DNA of 42,776 nt from Pseudomonadota bacterium (GTDB taxonomy: Bacteria > Pseudomonadota > Alphaproteobacteria > SHVZ01), in the NCBI GenBank assembly GCA_016195085.1, contig JACQAG010000045.1, positions 1 through 42,776 on the forward strand, given 5' to 3'. Position 1 is the stretch's first letter. Each line of letters begins with the position of its first letter. Positions 8,004 through 25,496 of the stretch are shown here, piece by piece. The notes beneath the pieces were generated by a model, which worked only from the letters and a program-made list of their open reading frames with translations, had not been told where the DNA came from and made no database searches. Made by a program: the position numbers and the translations under genes.

Positions 8004-8657
8004 CTACACGTTGGCGAGCTGGTCGGTCGTCACCTGGCCCACCATCGACAGAAATTCGCGGCGCGTCGATGGGTCGGTGCGGAAGGCGCCGAGCATGCGG
8101 CTCGTCACCATGGTGACGCCGGGCTTGTGCACGCCGCGCGTGGTCATGCATTGATGCGCCGCCTCGATCACCACGGCCACACCTTTCGGCTTCAGCACGT
8201 CGTCGATGCAGTTGGCGATCTGCGCCGTCATCTTTTCTTGGATCTGCAAACGGCGCGCATAGGCCTCGACCACCCGGGCCAGCTTCGAGATGCCGACGAC
8301 GCGCCGATCCGGCAGGTAGGCCACATGCGCCTTGCCGATGATCGGCGCCAGATGATGTTCGCAATGAGACTCGAAACGGATGTCGCGCAGCAGCACCATC
8401 TCGTCGTAGCCGTCGGTCTCCTCGAAGGTGCGGTTCAAGATCTCGACCGGGTCGACCTTGTAGCCGCCGAAGAATTCCTCGAACGCCTTGGTCACGCGCT
8501 TGGGCGTGTCGGCGAGGCCCTCGCGCGCGGGGTCGTCGCCGGCCCAGCGGATGAGCGTGCGGACCGCCGCCTCCACTTCGGCGCGGCTCGGCCGGTCGGA
8601 GGATGCAGCGTCAGCGTCAGGCGACGGTTTTAGGACCTTGGCCACGGATCGGCTCAC
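8004..8657 (-). CDS. folE: GTP cyclohydrolase I
   Basis: Converts GTP to dihydroneopterin triphosphate, the first step to folate and pterins. The T-fold enzyme signature is intact: [22 protein letters not shown] (zinc Cys and His), [25 protein letters not shown] and the third zinc ligand region [11 protein letters not shown]. Length is 217 aa from a GTG at 8657; a second GTG four codons later is also possible because the N-terminal 25 residues are not conserved. It lies 27 nt downstream of apaG and 33 nt upstream of argE, so the three are probably one transcript from the promoter at 9154-9182. Confidence 0.95.
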
Positions 8658-19636: not shown

Positions 19637-20533
19637 ATGGAGCAGCTGAGGGCCCTGGTCCTCAACATGTTCGAACAGGGCTTCCTGTTCGGCTTCTTGG
19701 GACTGGGAGTGCTCATCACCTTCCGCTTCTTCCGGTTCCCGGACCTCACCGCCGAGGGCAGCTACCCCTTGGGCGGGGCGGTGACGGCTTCGCTCCTGGT
19801 GGTCGGTCTTGACCCGTTCAGCGCGACCTTCGTCGCCATGCTCGCCGGCGCTGCCGCCGGCATCGCGACCGCGCTCGTCCACACCAAGCTCAAGATCAAC
19901 AACATCATCGCCGGCATCATCGTGATGACCGCCCTTTACACGGTCAACCTCCGGGTCATGGGGCGCGCGAACGTGCCGCTGCTCAATACCCCCTCGGTGT
20001 TCGGCGACGTGCCGGCGCTTCTCAATCGCCTGGGCTTTGCGCTCTCCGACAATGTGTTCACCACGATCGCCATCGCCTTCGTCCTCCTGGCCGTCGCCGG
20101 CTTGGCCGTCGTCTGGTTTTTCTCGACCGATCTCGGCCTCGCCGTGCGCGCCACCGGCCAGAACGAGGCGATGATCCTCTCGCTCGGCGTCGACACCGAC
20201 CGCACGAAAATGGTCGGGCTTGCGCTCTCCAACGGCTTGATCGCCCTTTCCGGGGCCCTGGTGGCGCAGAACCACGGCTTCGCCGATATCGGCATGGGCA
20301 TCGGCATCCTGGTGACCGGCGCGGCCGCGGTGCTGATCGGCGAAGCGATCTTCGGCGACCGCACCGTCGCCTGGTGGGTGCTGGCGGCGATCATCGGCGT
20401 TCTCATCTACCGGCTCCTGGTGGCACTGGCGCTGCGCTTCGGGCTGCAGCCGATCGATCTCCGGCTCATCACCGCCATGCTCCTGCTGCTGGCGCTCTCC
20501 GTGCCGCGCTGGCGCACGCGCATCCTTCGCTGA
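19637..20533 (+). CDS. ABC transporter permease (COG4120, BPD_transp_2 type)
   Basis: A 298-aa inner-membrane permease related to the branched-chain amino acid/ribose permease superfamily, of the COG4120 branch that pairs with COG2984 binding proteins and COG1101 ATPases (TrpX-type systems). About eight to nine hydrophobic segments are seen. The GTP-like cytoplasmic loop LGLAVRATGQNEAMILSLGVDTDRTKMVGLALSNGLIALSG is the conserved ATPase-contact region. I start at ATG 19637 (AGAGGGGACGG just upstream); the open frame before it lacks membrane character. First gene of the importer-oxygenase operon; its stop is 5 nt before the ATPase start. Confidence 0.88.
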   Translation: MEQLRALVLNMFEQGFLFGFLGLGVLITFRFFRFPDLTAEGSYPLGGAVTASLLVVGLDPFSATFVAMLAGAAAGIATALVHTKLKINNIIAGIIVMTALYTVNLRVMGRANVPLLNTPSVFGDVPALLNRLGFALSDNVFTTIAIAFVLLAVAGLAVVWFFSTDLGLAVRATGQNEAMILSLGVDTDRTKMVGLALSNGLIALSGALVAQNHGFADIGMGIGILVTGAAAVLIGEAIFGDRTVAWWVLAAIIGVLIYRLLVALALRFGLQPIDLRLITAMLLLLALSVPRWRTRILR

Positions 20534-20538
20534 CCCTC

Positions 20539-21336
20539 ATGCTCAAGCTCCGCTCGCTGACCAAATGCTTCCTCCGCGGCACACCCAACGAGGTGAAGGC
20601 GATCGATGCCCTCTCGCTCGACGTCGCGTCCGGGGATTTCATCACCGTCATCGGCTCGAATGGCGCCGGAAAGTCGACGCTGATCAAACTGGTGGCAGGA
20701 ATCGCAGAGCCCGACGACGGCACGATCCTGTTCGAGGGAAGCGACATCACCCGCGTTGCGGTCCATCGCCGGGCTGCTTCCATCGGCCGCATCGCCCAGG
20801 ATCCGGGCGAAAGCACCTGTGCCGTCATGACCATCGAAGAAAACCTGGCCATGGCCGAGAAGCGCGGCCGGATGCGGGGCCTCGCGCGCGCCGTGACCGC
20901 TTCCGGGCGCGAGCGCTATCAGGCCGCGTTGGCGCCCATCGGGCTTGGATTGGAAGCAAGGCTGGCGACGCGCGTGGGCATGCTGTCGGGCGGCCAGCGC
21001 CAGGCATTGGCCTTGCTGATGGCGACCTTGTCGGGCTCGCGCCTGCTCTTGCTGGACGAGCACCTGGCCAGCCTGGATCCGCGCACCGCCGAAATCGTCA
21101 TGGCGCTGACCGGCCGCCTGGTGGCCGAGCGCAGGCTCACCACCATCATGATCACCCACAACATGCAGGACGCCATCCGTTGGGGAACCCGCCTTCTGAT
21201 GATGCATGCCGGGCGCATCCTGTTCGATGTCCAAGGCCCGGCCAAGGCGGCGCTCGACGTGGGAGCGCTCGTGGACAAGTTCCACGAGGCCAGCCGGCAC
21301 CGGCTCAACGACGATCGAGTCCTTTTGACCCCGTGA
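20539..21336 (+). CDS. ABC transporter ATP-binding protein (COG1101)
   Basis: Nucleotide-binding subunit, 265 aa. Walker A GSNGAGKSTL, Q-loop RIAQDPGESTCAVMTIEENLAMA, signature LSGGQRQALAL, Walker B LLLLDEHLASLD and H-loop TTIMITHNMQDAI are intact. Two details mark the COG1101 branch: the QDP-x-x-x-T insertion after the Q-loop and the Walker B DEHLASLDP, with His replacing the usual Pro of DEP. ATG 20539 is 5 nt after the permease stop. The partner permease and binding protein are on either side. Confidence 0.9.
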   Translation: MLKLRSLTKCFLRGTPNEVKAIDALSLDVASGDFITVIGSNGAGKSTLIKLVAGIAEPDDGTILFEGSDITRVAVHRRAASIGRIAQDPGESTCAVMTIEENLAMAEKRGRMRGLARAVTASGRERYQAALAPIGLGLEARLATRVGMLSGGQRQALALLMATLSGSRLLLLDEHLASLDPRTAEIVMALTGRLVAERRLTTIMITHNMQDAIRWGTRLLMMHAGRILFDVQGPAKAALDVGALVDKFHEASRHRLNDDRVLLTP

Positions 21337-21396
21337 ACCGACTAATATGACGGCATCCAGAAATCGTCCAAACGGACAAGGAGGGAGGGAGACATC

Positions 21397-22425
21397 ATGA
21401 AACCGATCGTTCTGATTTCGCGCCGCACGGCCGTGACGGCCGCGCTCGCCTTCGTCTCCGGCATCGCTGCCATGCCGCCGGCTCACGCGCAGACGCGCAC
21501 GCAGCCGGAACCGGGCCGCACCTACCGCATCGGCTATGCGCAGATCGTCGATCATCCCGCCCTCAACGCCACCCGCCAAGGCTTCATCGACGGGCTCAAG
21601 GCGGCCGGATTCGAGGTCGGCAAGAACCTGGTGTTCGACTACCAGAATGCCCAAGGCGATGTCGGCAGCGCGCGCAACATCGCCGAGAAGTTCCTCGCCG
21701 ACAAGGTCGACCTTCTGGCGCCCTGCACCACGCCGGTGGTGCTGGCGGCCTTGCGGGTGGCCAAGGATTCGAAGACGCCGGTCGCCTTCGGCTGCGTCAC
21801 CAATCCGATCGAGACCGGCGTTCTGCAGAGCATCGACAAGCCGACCGGCACCAACGTGACCGGCTTCTACACCATCCCGCCGGTCGACCGGAACTTCGAG
21901 CTCTTCGCGGCGATCAAGCCAGGCATGAAGACGATCGGCACCATCTACAATTCCGGCGAAACGAATTCCGCAGCGCTCGACAAGCTCTCCAAGGCGGAGG
22001 CCGACAAACGCGGCATCAAATGGGTTCCGGTGACGGTGACATCCAGCGCCGAGATCAAGAACGCGGTCGAATCGCTGATCGGCAAGGTGGATGCGATCGT
22101 GACGCCGCAGGACAACACGGTAGCGTCCGCCTATGAGGCGATCATCAAGGCGACGCGCGACGCCAAGGTGCCGTGGTTCTCCTTGGACGTGCTCGCCGTC
22201 GAGCGCGGAGCCATCGCCGCCGTTGCCCAGCACCAATACCAGAACGGCGTCGACTGGGCGAAGAAGGTGGCGGTGCCGGTGCTGCTCGGCAAGGATCCGG
22301 GCACGCTGACGGCGGTGGCCGCGGAGGTGTTCGAGTCGCAGGTCAACCTCACCGCCGCGAAAGCCGCGGGCCTGAGCATTCCCGACGGCATCGTGAAGCA
22401 GGCAAGCCGGGTGTTCGGGCAGTGA
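21397..22425 (+). CDS. ABC transporter substrate-binding protein (COG2984/TrpX-like)
   Basis: A 342-aa periplasmic binding protein with signal peptide (RRTAVTAALAFVSGIAAMPPAHAQ; the Arg pair makes Tat export possible). The mature protein has the two-lobed fold of the COG2984 family: IGYAQIVDHPALNATRQGFIDGL at the start, CTTPVVLAALRV, FGCVTNPIETGVL, TNVTGF and IGTIYNSGETNS, and VTPQDNTVAS in the second lobe. Relatives bind tryptophan or related compounds; given the ring-hydroxylating oxygenase just downstream, an aromatic ligand is an attractive but unproven guess. Very strong ribosome site (AAGGAGGGAGG). Third gene of the operon. Confidence 0.9.
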   Translation: MKPIVLISRRTAVTAALAFVSGIAAMPPAHAQTRTQPEPGRTYRIGYAQIVDHPALNATRQGFIDGLKAAGFEVGKNLVFDYQNAQGDVGSARNIAEKFLADKVDLLAPCTTPVVLAALRVAKDSKTPVAFGCVTNPIETGVLQSIDKPTGTNVTGFYTIPPVDRNFELFAAIKPGMKTIGTIYNSGETNSAALDKLSKAEADKRGIKWVPVTVTSSAEIKNAVESLIGKVDAIVTPQDNTVASAYEAIIKATRDAKVPWFSLDVLAVERGAIAAVAQHQYQNGVDWAKKVAVPVLLGKDPGTLTAVAAEVFESQVNLTAAKAAGLSIPDGIVKQASRVFGQ

Positions 22426-22458: not shown

Positions 22459-23715
22459 ATGAGCCCGGAAGCGGTCCGCGCGCTCATCGAGCCCGACCGC
22501 GTCGATCGCCGGGTCTACACCGACCCGGCGATCTTCGCGCTCGAGATCGAGCGCATCTTCGCGCGGGCCTGGATCTATGTCGCCCATGCGAGCCAGCTGA
22601 AGCAACCCGGCGACTTCGTCACGACCAAGGTGGCGCAGCAGGACGTGGTGGTCATTCGCCACCTCGACGGATCGATCCGGGCGCTGCGCAATCGCTGCGG
22701 CCATCGCGGCGCACGGGTGGTCGCTGAGCGCTCAGGCAACGCCAAGCGTCTGCAATGCCCCTATCACGGCTGGACGTTCCTGACCGATGGGGCGCTGGAC
22801 GCGGTCCCCTTGCCGGAAGGCTATGACGGCACCGGCTTCGAGCGCAGCCTGCACGGCATGCAGGCGCTGCCGCGGGTGGCGAGCTATCGCGGCTTCGTGT
22901 TCGCCAGCCTTGCCGCCGAGGGGCCCGATCTCGAAAGCTTTCTCGGGCCCGCCGGCGCGGTCTTGGACAACATGGTGGAGCGCGCGCCCGAAGGCGAGCT
23001 CGAGATCGCCGGCGGCACGTTCCGGGCGCTCCAGCGCAACAATTGGAAGATCTATCTCGAAAACCTGCATGACGGCGTGCACGCACAGAGCGTGCATCGC
23101 GCCTCCATCGAGGCCAGCCGCGCGGTCGCCGCCACGCTTACGGGGCCGCCGCGCTTCGCCCTCGAAATCGTCGCCGCCAACGGCATTCCCTTCCGCGAGA
23201 TGGGCAAGCTCACAGTGAATTGCTACGGGCACGGCCATAGCGACATGCGCGGCTTTCGCAAGACCCGCGCAACGGATCCGGAGTTTCAGGAATACGAGGC
23301 GGCGCTGGCACGACGAATCGGCGCCGACGGCGCTGCTGGCGTGCTCGACGACAATCGTCACAATGCGCTGATCTATCCCGGCTTCTCGGTGCATCCGGCA
23401 TTCCAGCAGCTCCGGGTGATCATCCCGGAGAGGGTGGACCGCACCGTGGTCGAGGTTTGGTGCCTCCGCATGAAAGGCGCGCCGGCGCACATGCACCGCC
23501 GCACCGTCGCCTTTGCCAATGCCGTGCATTCGCCCGCCTCCATCGTCAAGGTGGACGACCTCGAAGCCTATGAGCGGGTGCAGGAAGGCTGGTCCGACGA
23601 TGGCTGGGTCAGCCTGCATCGCGGCGCCGGACGCGCCGGCGGCGCCACCGCGCTCGACGAGCGCTTCATCCGCAACCAGTACCAAGCCTGGCTCGGCTAC
23701 ATGGAGGCCGCATAA
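22459..23715 (+). CDS. Rieske ring-hydroxylating oxygenase, alpha subunit
   Basis: The catalytic subunit of a two-component aromatic dioxygenase or related Rieske oxygenase, 418 aa. The Rieske [2Fe-2S] ligands are C80-x-H82 and C100-x-x-H103 (RCGHRGA and CPYHGW). The mononuclear iron site is D205, H208, H213 plus a later Asp, within NNWKIYLENLHDGVHAQSVH; the N-W-K-x-x-x-E-N start is typical. The substrate cannot be predicted from this view; alpha subunits for benzoate, anthranilate, salicylate and others share these motifs. It lies 33 nt after the binding protein gene. The stop is TAA, overlapping the expected beta-subunit start codon by 3 bases. No reductase or ferredoxin gene is in the window. 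Confidence 0.93.
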   Translation: MSPEAVRALIEPDRVDRRVYTDPAIFALEIERIFARAWIYVAHASQLKQPGDFVTTKVAQQDVVVIRHLDGSIRALRNRCGHRGARVVAERSGNAKRLQCPYHGWTFLTDGALDAVPLPEGYDGTGFERSLHGMQALPRVASYRGFVFASLAAEGPDLESFLGPAGAVLDNMVERAPEGELEIAGGTFRALQRNNWKIYLENLHDGVHAQSVHRASIEASRAVAATLTGPPRFALEIVAANGIPFREMGKLTVNCYGHGHSDMRGFRKTRATDPEFQEYEAALARRIGADGAAGVLDDNRHNALIYPGFSVHPAFQQLRVIIPERVDRTVVEVWCLRMKGAPAHMHRRTVAFANAVHSPASIVKVDDLEAYERVQEGWSDDGWVSLHRGAGRAGGATALDERFIRNQYQAWLGYMEAA

Positions 23716-24182
23716 GCGAGCTTGCCCAAATCGCCGGTTTCCTCCACCAAGAGGCGGCACTGCTCGACGAGCGGCGCTTCGAGGCCTGGCTCGACCTGTT
23801 CGCCGAGGACGGCACCTATTGGATTCCAGCCTCGGCCGGCCAGCCGGACCCGCTCGACCACGTATCGCTCGTCTACGAGGACCTGACCATGCTGCGCGTC
23901 AGGATTCGCCGCCTCGTCCATCCCGGGGCGCATGCCTTGGCGATCCCGATCCGCACCAGTCGGCTCGTCGGCAACGTGATGCTGGTCGATGGGGATGGGG
24001 ATAGGTTGACCGTGCGCGCGCGTTTCCAGCTCCTCGAGATGCAGGGCGAGCGCCAGCGCCTGTTCGCCGGCGCCTACACGCATCTCCTGGTGCGCCATCG
24101 CGGCAGCTTCAAGATCCGGCAGAAGCGCGTCGACCTGGTCGGCAGCGACGCCACGCATGCGGCCATCCAGGTCCTAATCTGA
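23712..24182 (+). CDS. Ring-hydroxylating oxygenase, beta subunit (ATA start?)
   Basis: The small non-catalytic subunit with the NTF2-like fold. The first residues (xSELAQIAGFLHQEAALLDE, then RRFEAWLDLFAEDGTYWIP) align with the usual N-terminus M-S-x-x-x-I-x-x-F-L-x-x-E-A-x-L-L-D-x-R of this family, and the end (RLFAGAYTHLLVRHRGSFKIRQKRVDLVGSD) is also typical. At the place where ATG is expected the codon is ATA (23712-23714). No ATG, GTG or TTG occurs in frame until ATG 23889, which would remove 59 residues of the core. From ATA the protein is 156 aa, the usual size. Its end overlaps the UbiD gene's 3' end by 9 bases. Confidence 0.85.
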   Translation: MSELAQIAGFLHQEAALLDERRFEAWLDLFAEDGTYWIPASAGQPDPLDHVSLVYEDLTMLRVRIRRLVHPGAHALAIPIRTSRLVGNVMLVDGDGDRLTVRARFQLLEMQGERQRLFAGAYTHLLVRHRGSFKIRQKRVDLVGSDATHAAIQVLI

Positions 24183-25496
24183 GACGTAGTCCTTGAGGCG
24201 AATGCGGTCCTCGCCCGGAATGCGCCGGCGCTCGAACTCGGCTTCGCGGCCCAAGGGCTTGGTCGCATCGATCATGAGCCGGCCCCAATGGTCGCGCTCC
24301 GGGTCGCGGTAGAAGCCGGGCACATCGGGGATGATCGTGGTGCGGGTATCGACCCGGCCGCGGGTCAGGAACGCCCACCAGACATCGTCGAGATCGTGGA
24401 TGTCGACGTCATCGTCGACGACGATCGCCGCCTTGTTGTAGTCGAGATGGCTGCCGACGGCGGCCAGCGCCACATGGCGCGCATGGCCGGGATAGAGCTG
24501 CTTGATGCTGACGACGGTGCAAAGCAGGGATGCGTGGATGGCGACGTCGACCACGCCCCGCACCTGCTGGCTCAAGAGCCGGTAGATGCGCGAAGCGGTC
24601 GCCTCCTGCAGCAAGACGATGTCCTCCGGCGAGCCGCAGAGGAGGCCGTGGAACACCGCGTTCTCCCGATAGCTCACATGCTTCACCTGGAAGACGTGAT
24701 TGTCGCCGACGGGCACGTAGTAGCCCATGAACTCCCCGAACGGCCCCTCGGGGCGGCGAATATCGGGAAGGATCTCGCCCTCGACCACGATCTCGGTATC
24801 CGCCGGCACCATGAGATCGATCGAGCGGCAGGGGCGCATGTCGATGGGTCGCCCGCGGATCTGGGCAGCGGCCGAGAGCTCGTCGGTCTCGTAGGGCAGC
24901 GAGGCGGCGGCGGCGAGAAAAATGTCGGGCGCGGTGCCGATGAGGAGGGCCGCCGGCAGCGCCTGGCCCCGTGCCTCGGCTTTTTGCTGGTAGCGGGTCA
25001 AGTCGTGAGTGCCGCCCAGGCGGATGCGCAGCTCCGTGTCGCTCACATACATGGAGCGGTGGAAGGAGAGGTTGGCGACACCGGTATCGGGCTCGCGCGC
25101 GAGATAGATGGCGGCGGTGAAATACGGGCCGGCGTCGCGCTCCCAATAGGTGATCTGCGGCAGCTCCGAGAGCGTTCCGTCCTTGAGATCGGCGGGTGGC
25201 GCCACCGGATTGAGGAAGCTCGTCGCACTCGGCTGCAGGCCGCTCGACAGCGCCTGCCAACGCCGGCAAAAGCTGCCATCGGTGGCGCCGATCAGCTCGC
25301 GGAGCCGCTTCCGGCTGCCGTAGATGTTGGTGACCACCGGCAGGCGGGAGCCCTTCACCCGTCGAAACAGGAGCGGGCGCTCATCCTCAGCCTGGCTCAG
25401 CTTGGTGACCGCGGCCAGCTCGTGGCGCGGGTCGACTTCGCGTTCGACCACGCGCATTTCGCCCCGCGCCATCAGCCTCTGGACGTAGTCGCGCAT
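24174..25496 (-). CDS. UbiD-family decarboxylase
   Basis: A 440-aa prenylated-FMN-dependent (de)carboxylase of the UbiD superfamily. Recognisable regions: MRDYVQRLMARGEMRVVEREVDPRHELAAV at the start, IRRPEGPFGEFMGYYVPVG (family signature with the prFMN/metal Glu), and DYNKAAIVVDDDVDIHDLDDVWWAFLTR. UbiD relatives act on polyprenyl-hydroxybenzoate or on aromatic and unsaturated acids. Here a catabolic role with the adjacent Rieske oxygenase is more likely than ubiquinone synthesis, by context only. No UbiX-like prenyltransferase is in the window. It converges on the oxygenase operon with a 9-bp overlap. Confidence 0.88.
   Translation of the reverse strand: MRDYVQRLMARGEMRVVEREVDPRHELAAVTKLSQAEDERPLLFRRVKGSRLPVVTNIYGSRKRLRELIGATDGSFCRRWQALSSGLQPSATSFLNPVAPPADLKDGTLSELPQITYWERDAGPYFTAAIYLAREPDTGVANLSFHRSMYVSDTELRIRLGGTHDLTRYQQKAEARGQALPAALLIGTAPDIFLAAAASLPYETDELSAAAQIRGRPIDMRPCRSIDLMVPADTEIVVEGEILPDIRRPEGPFGEFMGYYVPVGDNHVFQVKHVSYRENAVFHGLLCGSPEDIVLLQEATASRIYRLLSQQVRGVVDVAIHASLLCTVVSIKQLYPGHARHVALAAVGSHLDYNKAAIVVDDDVDIHDLDDVWWAFLTRGRVDTRTTIIPDVPGFYRDPERDHWGRLMIDATKPLGREAEFERRRIPGEDRIRLKDYVSD

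Follow-up and report, generated by a model that had tools for sequence, protein, structure and literature searches.

The classic gene with a near-cognate start codon is infC, which encodes initiation factor IF3 and autoregulates. In S. aureus, infC, ccpN, and citZ start at AUA behind extended Shine-Dalgarno sites; the yield from AUA was roughly 10% of that from AUG, although ccpN in rich medium reached as much as 30%, and the AUA of citZ was limited to one strain lineage (PMC13009471). In Streptomyces, sigR starts at GTC and is repressed by IF3 (PMC5472188). Termination-reinitiation is also described for gene pairs with ATGA/TGATG overlaps; for ATGA pairs, coupling is established, and the upstream gene typically carries a Shine-Dalgarno motif (PMC6728339).

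We analyzed a stretch of 42,776 nucleotides (the window), which is contig C45 of the 4.81 Mb draft genome of an uncultured alphaproteobacterium, in 95 contigs with 95.92% completeness. The features of the locus are as follows.

19637 to 22425, plus strand: ABC transporter genes upstream of the oxygenase genes and co-directed with them (permease, PF02653; ATPase, PF00005; ABC_sub_bind substrate-binding protein, PF04392)
22459 to 23715, plus strand: ring-hydroxylating oxygenase alpha subunit, 418 aa (Rieske domain, PF00355, 3.3e-21; catalytic domain, PF00848, 1.1e-14)
23703 to 23707, plus strand: Shine-Dalgarno sequence GGAGG within the final codons of alpha, separated from ATA by 4 nt (from the sequence and the duplex energy)
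23712 to 23715, plus strand: ATAA junction, the candidate ATA start of beta overlapping the TAA stop of alpha (from the sequence; GTGA or ATGA in relatives)
23712 to 24182, plus strand: intact gene for the ring-hydroxylating oxygenase beta subunit, 156 aa counted from ATA (PF00866, 1.9e-24)
23889 to 23891, plus strand: ATG at codon 60, the first canonical in-frame start (from the sequence)
24174 to 25496, minus strand: UbiD-family decarboxylase gene, convergent with beta (PF01977, 3.7e-56)

The alpha gene ends GAG GCC GCA TAA, with its stop at 23713-23715, and the beta frame across these bases reads ATA (23712-23714) AGC GAG CTT and is open through to its stop at 24180-24182. No ATG, GTG, or TTG occurs in the beta frame from the upstream stop down to ATG 23889, which is codon 60 counting from ATA, and the ~46 codons that are open 5' of ATA likewise contain no canonical start. 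Both points agree with the initial annotation, which had read GCA-TAA against ATA-AGC-GAG and had found no canonical start before codon 60. A start at ATG 23889 would drop the first 59 residues of beta, including the conserved L11, A15, D19, W26, Y36, W37, P39, and D57. Beta is thus a gene without a canonical start close to its conserved start position, where ATA 23712 stands behind GGAGG. As in ATGA/TGATG pairs, the two genes encode subunits of one complex in the same direction, share start and stop bases in a 4-nt overlap, and have a Shine-Dalgarno sequence in the upstream gene; unlike in those pairs, the shared bases are AUAA instead of AUGA, and coupling at beta is putative (PMC6728339). 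Elsewhere in the window, the gene calls contain five canonical 4-nt overlaps, two ATGA (14112 and 36707) and three GTGA (9713, 10378, and 29731), rather than the four further ATGA overlaps counted previously.

Comparison of the junction with relatives showed that they start at the ATA position. In the nearest relative, L012/L092 (identity of 71% for alpha and ~62% for beta), GCG GTG AAC with an overlapping TGA gives GTGA, and L013 (56% alpha identity), L015, L096, L102, and L103 read ATGA. Because the relatives have NTGA at this place and beta retains 16 of the 17 columns conserved at ≥90% among 49 homologs, the position of the start is conserved, with ATA having replaced a canonical codon. 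The single G-to-A change at an ATGA junction proposed in the initial annotation is supported in that the relatives point to replacement of an NTGA overlap at exactly that base; with GTGA in the closest relative, the ancestral junction may have been either ATGA (one change) or GTGA (two changes). The ATA at beta was observed in one assembly and is not kept in the relatives, whose nearest members have GTG or ATG; such conservation would support assignment to the near-cognate class and is not strictly required for it.

The duplex energy of GGAGG with ACCUCCUU was -9.3, a value equalled or bettered by ~8% of the 159 canonical 4-nt-overlap starts of the genome, and the corresponding energies in relatives were weaker (-6.8 in L012, -4.8 in L013, and -1.5 in L015); for beta, this argument concerns a single site. 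According to a codon-usage gene finder, the coding signal of beta begins at 23718, two codons past ATA. These results bear on the idea that beta starts elsewhere, from an upstream near-cognate codon such as CTG 23688, from ATC at codon 7, or by a -1 frameshift at the alpha end that would yield an alpha-beta fusion. The open ~46 codons upstream and the presence of in-frame CTG and ATC codons would permit this, but by inspection CTG 23688 has no Shine-Dalgarno site and the alpha end has no slippery heptamer, and both the relatives and the coding signal begin at the ATA position. We regard such a start as highly improbable.

Beta scored 86.8 bits against PF00866 (cut-off, 27) over residues 13-143 and lies directly behind an alpha gene with PF00355 and PF00848, which places it in the family, and it is the single PF00866 match in its own genome. 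Direct reading of the alpha translation showed the CGH...CPYH and D-x2-H-x4-H motifs. No lesion beyond the beta start codon was found in alpha or beta. Both subunits fell under all NCBIfam cut-offs, including the curated ones for named dioxygenases (benzoate, anthranilate, and phenylpropionate), with best scores of 58.5 bits vs 145 for beta and 195.3 vs 780.95 for alpha. In the relative L012, genes for an ABC ATPase and an ABC_sub_bind protein also precede alpha, and a UbiD gene is also found near the operon. The 3' ends of beta and the convergent UbiD gene share 9 bases (24174-24182). A plasmid search gave only matches of 65-71% identity, none spanning 80% of the query.

The beta gene was missing from the six family relatives compared, so the oxygenase module is accessory. 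This accessory status, together with the weakness of AUA initiation in S. aureus (PMC13009471), would fit a real G-to-A mutation that silenced beta, which would then be a pseudogene at an early stage beside an oxygenase that is inactive or consists of alpha only. However, the beta frame is wholly open with its conserved residues retained, the strong Shine-Dalgarno site is preserved, neither gene carries another lesion, and AUA is apparently tolerated at purM of the same genome (see below). Silencing is therefore quite improbable in our judgment.

Furthermore, we surveyed 1.77 Mb of the same genome with the codon-usage gene finder, covering 1551 genes whose 5' ends are complete. Beta ranked first of the 1551, with the greatest loss of coding signal (22.6) ahead of its first canonical start. 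Eighteen genes were flagged as start-less, and those whose frames were read comprised several antisense shadow frames, one broken carB (L177), and two apparent near-cognate starts, namely the ATA of purM and, with less certainty, an ATC in an Lrp-type regulator. As a control, 400 kb of a complete genome was searched, and none of its 337 genes was flagged. The Lrp/AsnC-type regulator (L119; G000:C1, 4191-4691, minus strand) has >50 codons without a canonical start and either a possible ATC behind AGGAG or a frame error; it was not adopted as an ATC-start gene, given its distant homologs and the possible frame error. CTG codons at 4-nt-overlap positions (53 cases in the genome) were also not adopted, a canonical start being nearby in nearly all.

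Across the 504,373 codons of the 1.77 Mb, which offer 122,412 single-base nonsense opportunities and ~10,700 start-loss opportunities, no gene showed a clear nonsense split; the few candidate splits were judged by reading translations, and the count is an estimate, not proof. If one start loss were expected by substitution, several nonsense breaks should be visible; none is clear, so error and decay become less likely. A random base error or decay is an unlikely cause of the ATA, a conclusion tempered by the fact that the beta locus was selected for being odd. In L177 (G000:C28), the carB frame is broken near 8650 by an apparent internal deletion and a frameshift. The deletion is estimated at about 57 codons from the general features of CarB and not from an alignment. 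The break is probably an assembly fault and possibly a real lesion, so the assembly has at least one probable fault or real lesion.

These observations cut both ways for a consensus error or a minor-strain base, under which the true base at 23714 would be G and the junction an ordinary ATGA. The assembly is a 95-contig draft at 95.92% completeness, the carB break resembles a small internal deletion with a frameshift, and relatives carry G at the matching base. Against this, the lack of a clear nonsense-split gene indicates that gene-breaking base errors are rare, and the ATA of purM recurs in six other genomes, so that ATA starts in general do not stem from a fault of this assembly. We give this explanation a limited though appreciable chance.

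The purM gene of the same genome (L218; G000:C3:40945-42024, minus strand) starts GAGGATGCC ATA ACC and has no canonical start from the upstream stop to codon 30. All six family genomes compared carry ATA at the corresponding position (GAGGACACC ATA), so that here the near-cognate start is kept in relatives. In its own genome and the six family members, the ATA is preceded by GAGG, and no canonical start lies between a TTATAC promoter-like sequence and the conserved motif; upstream in-frame GTG or TTG codons, where present, are at least 60 nt away, ahead of the promoter-like sequence. The infC gene (L256; G000:C32, frame opening at locus position 1204) starts AGGAGGACATAC ATC behind AGGAGG. 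Because purM (ATA) and infC (ATC) of the same genome start in this way, near-cognate initiation is very probably part of normal translation in this lineage.

We also surveyed 82 purM loci, mostly best matches rather than a random sample and including one false motif hit. Within 30 codons, 18 had both kinds of start; 19 had only AUA, AUC, or AUU with a Shine-Dalgarno sequence, 42 had canonical starts, and 3 had neither. In many alphaproteobacterial genomes, apparent ATA, ATC, or ATT starts of purM stand behind a Shine-Dalgarno sequence of the GAGGAnnCC type, often with no canonical start, and in others that site has ATG. The loci with such an apparent start are L218, L219-L223, L234, L228, L230, L233, L263, L264, L266-L269, L272, L276, L281-L283, L285, L291, L294, L295, L297, L301-L304, and L306. 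The purM ATA of L218 overlaps a two-codon minigene, ATG CCA TAA, again forming ATAA; no such overlap appeared where the start was ATC or ATT. No report of purM with a non-AUG start was found in the literature searched, which covered few subscription papers.

The initial annotation had offered a rare ATA start, silencing, and sequencing error as outcomes. The absence of a canonical start, the ATA at a conserved position, the strong Shine-Dalgarno site, the intact protein, the single beta copy, the purM and infC genes without canonical starts, and the lack of a clear nonsense split favor use of the ATA, the other two outcomes keeping the lower likelihoods given above. AUA at beta is most likely a real but unusual weak start and not the mark of a dead gene, and from the sequence we consider it probable that beta is translated from it by termination-reinitiation, with the aid of the strong Shine-Dalgarno site and at reduced yield. 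Ribosomes would terminate alpha at UAA, be held at the junction by pairing with GGAGG, back up one base, and use fMet-tRNA to reinitiate at the overlapping AUA. The third codon position would hold a C-A mismatch that cuts the yield, with the strong Shine-Dalgarno site partly compensating, and beta would probably be made at a fraction of the output of an ATGA or GTGA junction. A lowered beta:alpha ratio would be expected. Under an AUA start, the N-terminal peptide of beta would open Met-Ser-Glu-Leu, and MSELAQIAGFLHQEAALLDER or SELAQIAGFLHQEAALLDER would be a peptide diagnostic of that start.

Beta resembles infC genes with AUU or AUC starts in combining a near-cognate start with a strong Shine-Dalgarno site; unlike infC, it has no known link to initiation. 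It likewise resembles S. aureus infC, ccpN, and citZ in having AUA behind a strong Shine-Dalgarno site, and citZ in that the AUA of beta, like that of citZ, is apparently a lineage-restricted variant; ribosome profiling or reporter assays located the S. aureus starts, whereas the candidate start of beta is known from sequence, and in the accessible part of the source they are not described as 4-nt start/stop overlaps (PMC13009471). With Streptomyces sigR, beta shares a near-cognate start within an operon that has consequences for subunit ratio and is overlooked by gene callers. In the sigR operon, however, the unusual start belongs to the upstream gene and the ATGA overlap is of the ordinary kind, whereas at beta the unusual codon is the one in the overlap; IF3 repression is a feature of sigR (PMC5472188) and for beta a hypothesis, which we infer along with AUA use, reinitiation, and lowered yield.

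AUA starts are already known in bacteria, and beta probably adds one more case, at a coupled junction. Callers limited to ATG, GTG, and TTG would set the beta start at codon 60 or miss beta, and in many alphaproteobacterial genomes they would set purM at the wrong place. Start/stop coupling would tolerate near-cognate starts if AUA functions within an AUAA overlap, and a one-base evolutionary route to a lower downstream-subunit ratio would then exist. The purM pathway shares formyl-folate with fMet-tRNA. It is conceivable, though we hold it unlikely, that AUA, AUC, and AUU starts form a small functional class in the lineage (infC, purM, and AUAA-coupled beta) whose yield tracks the supply of IF3 or initiator tRNA, with purM as its conserved core and AUAA as a low-gain form of ATGA coupling. 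The purM start, a conserved AUA, AUC, or AUU in many Alphaproteobacteria, is probably a more interesting lead than beta and merits separate study, and its pattern suggests that translational control of purine synthesis includes an overlooked layer.
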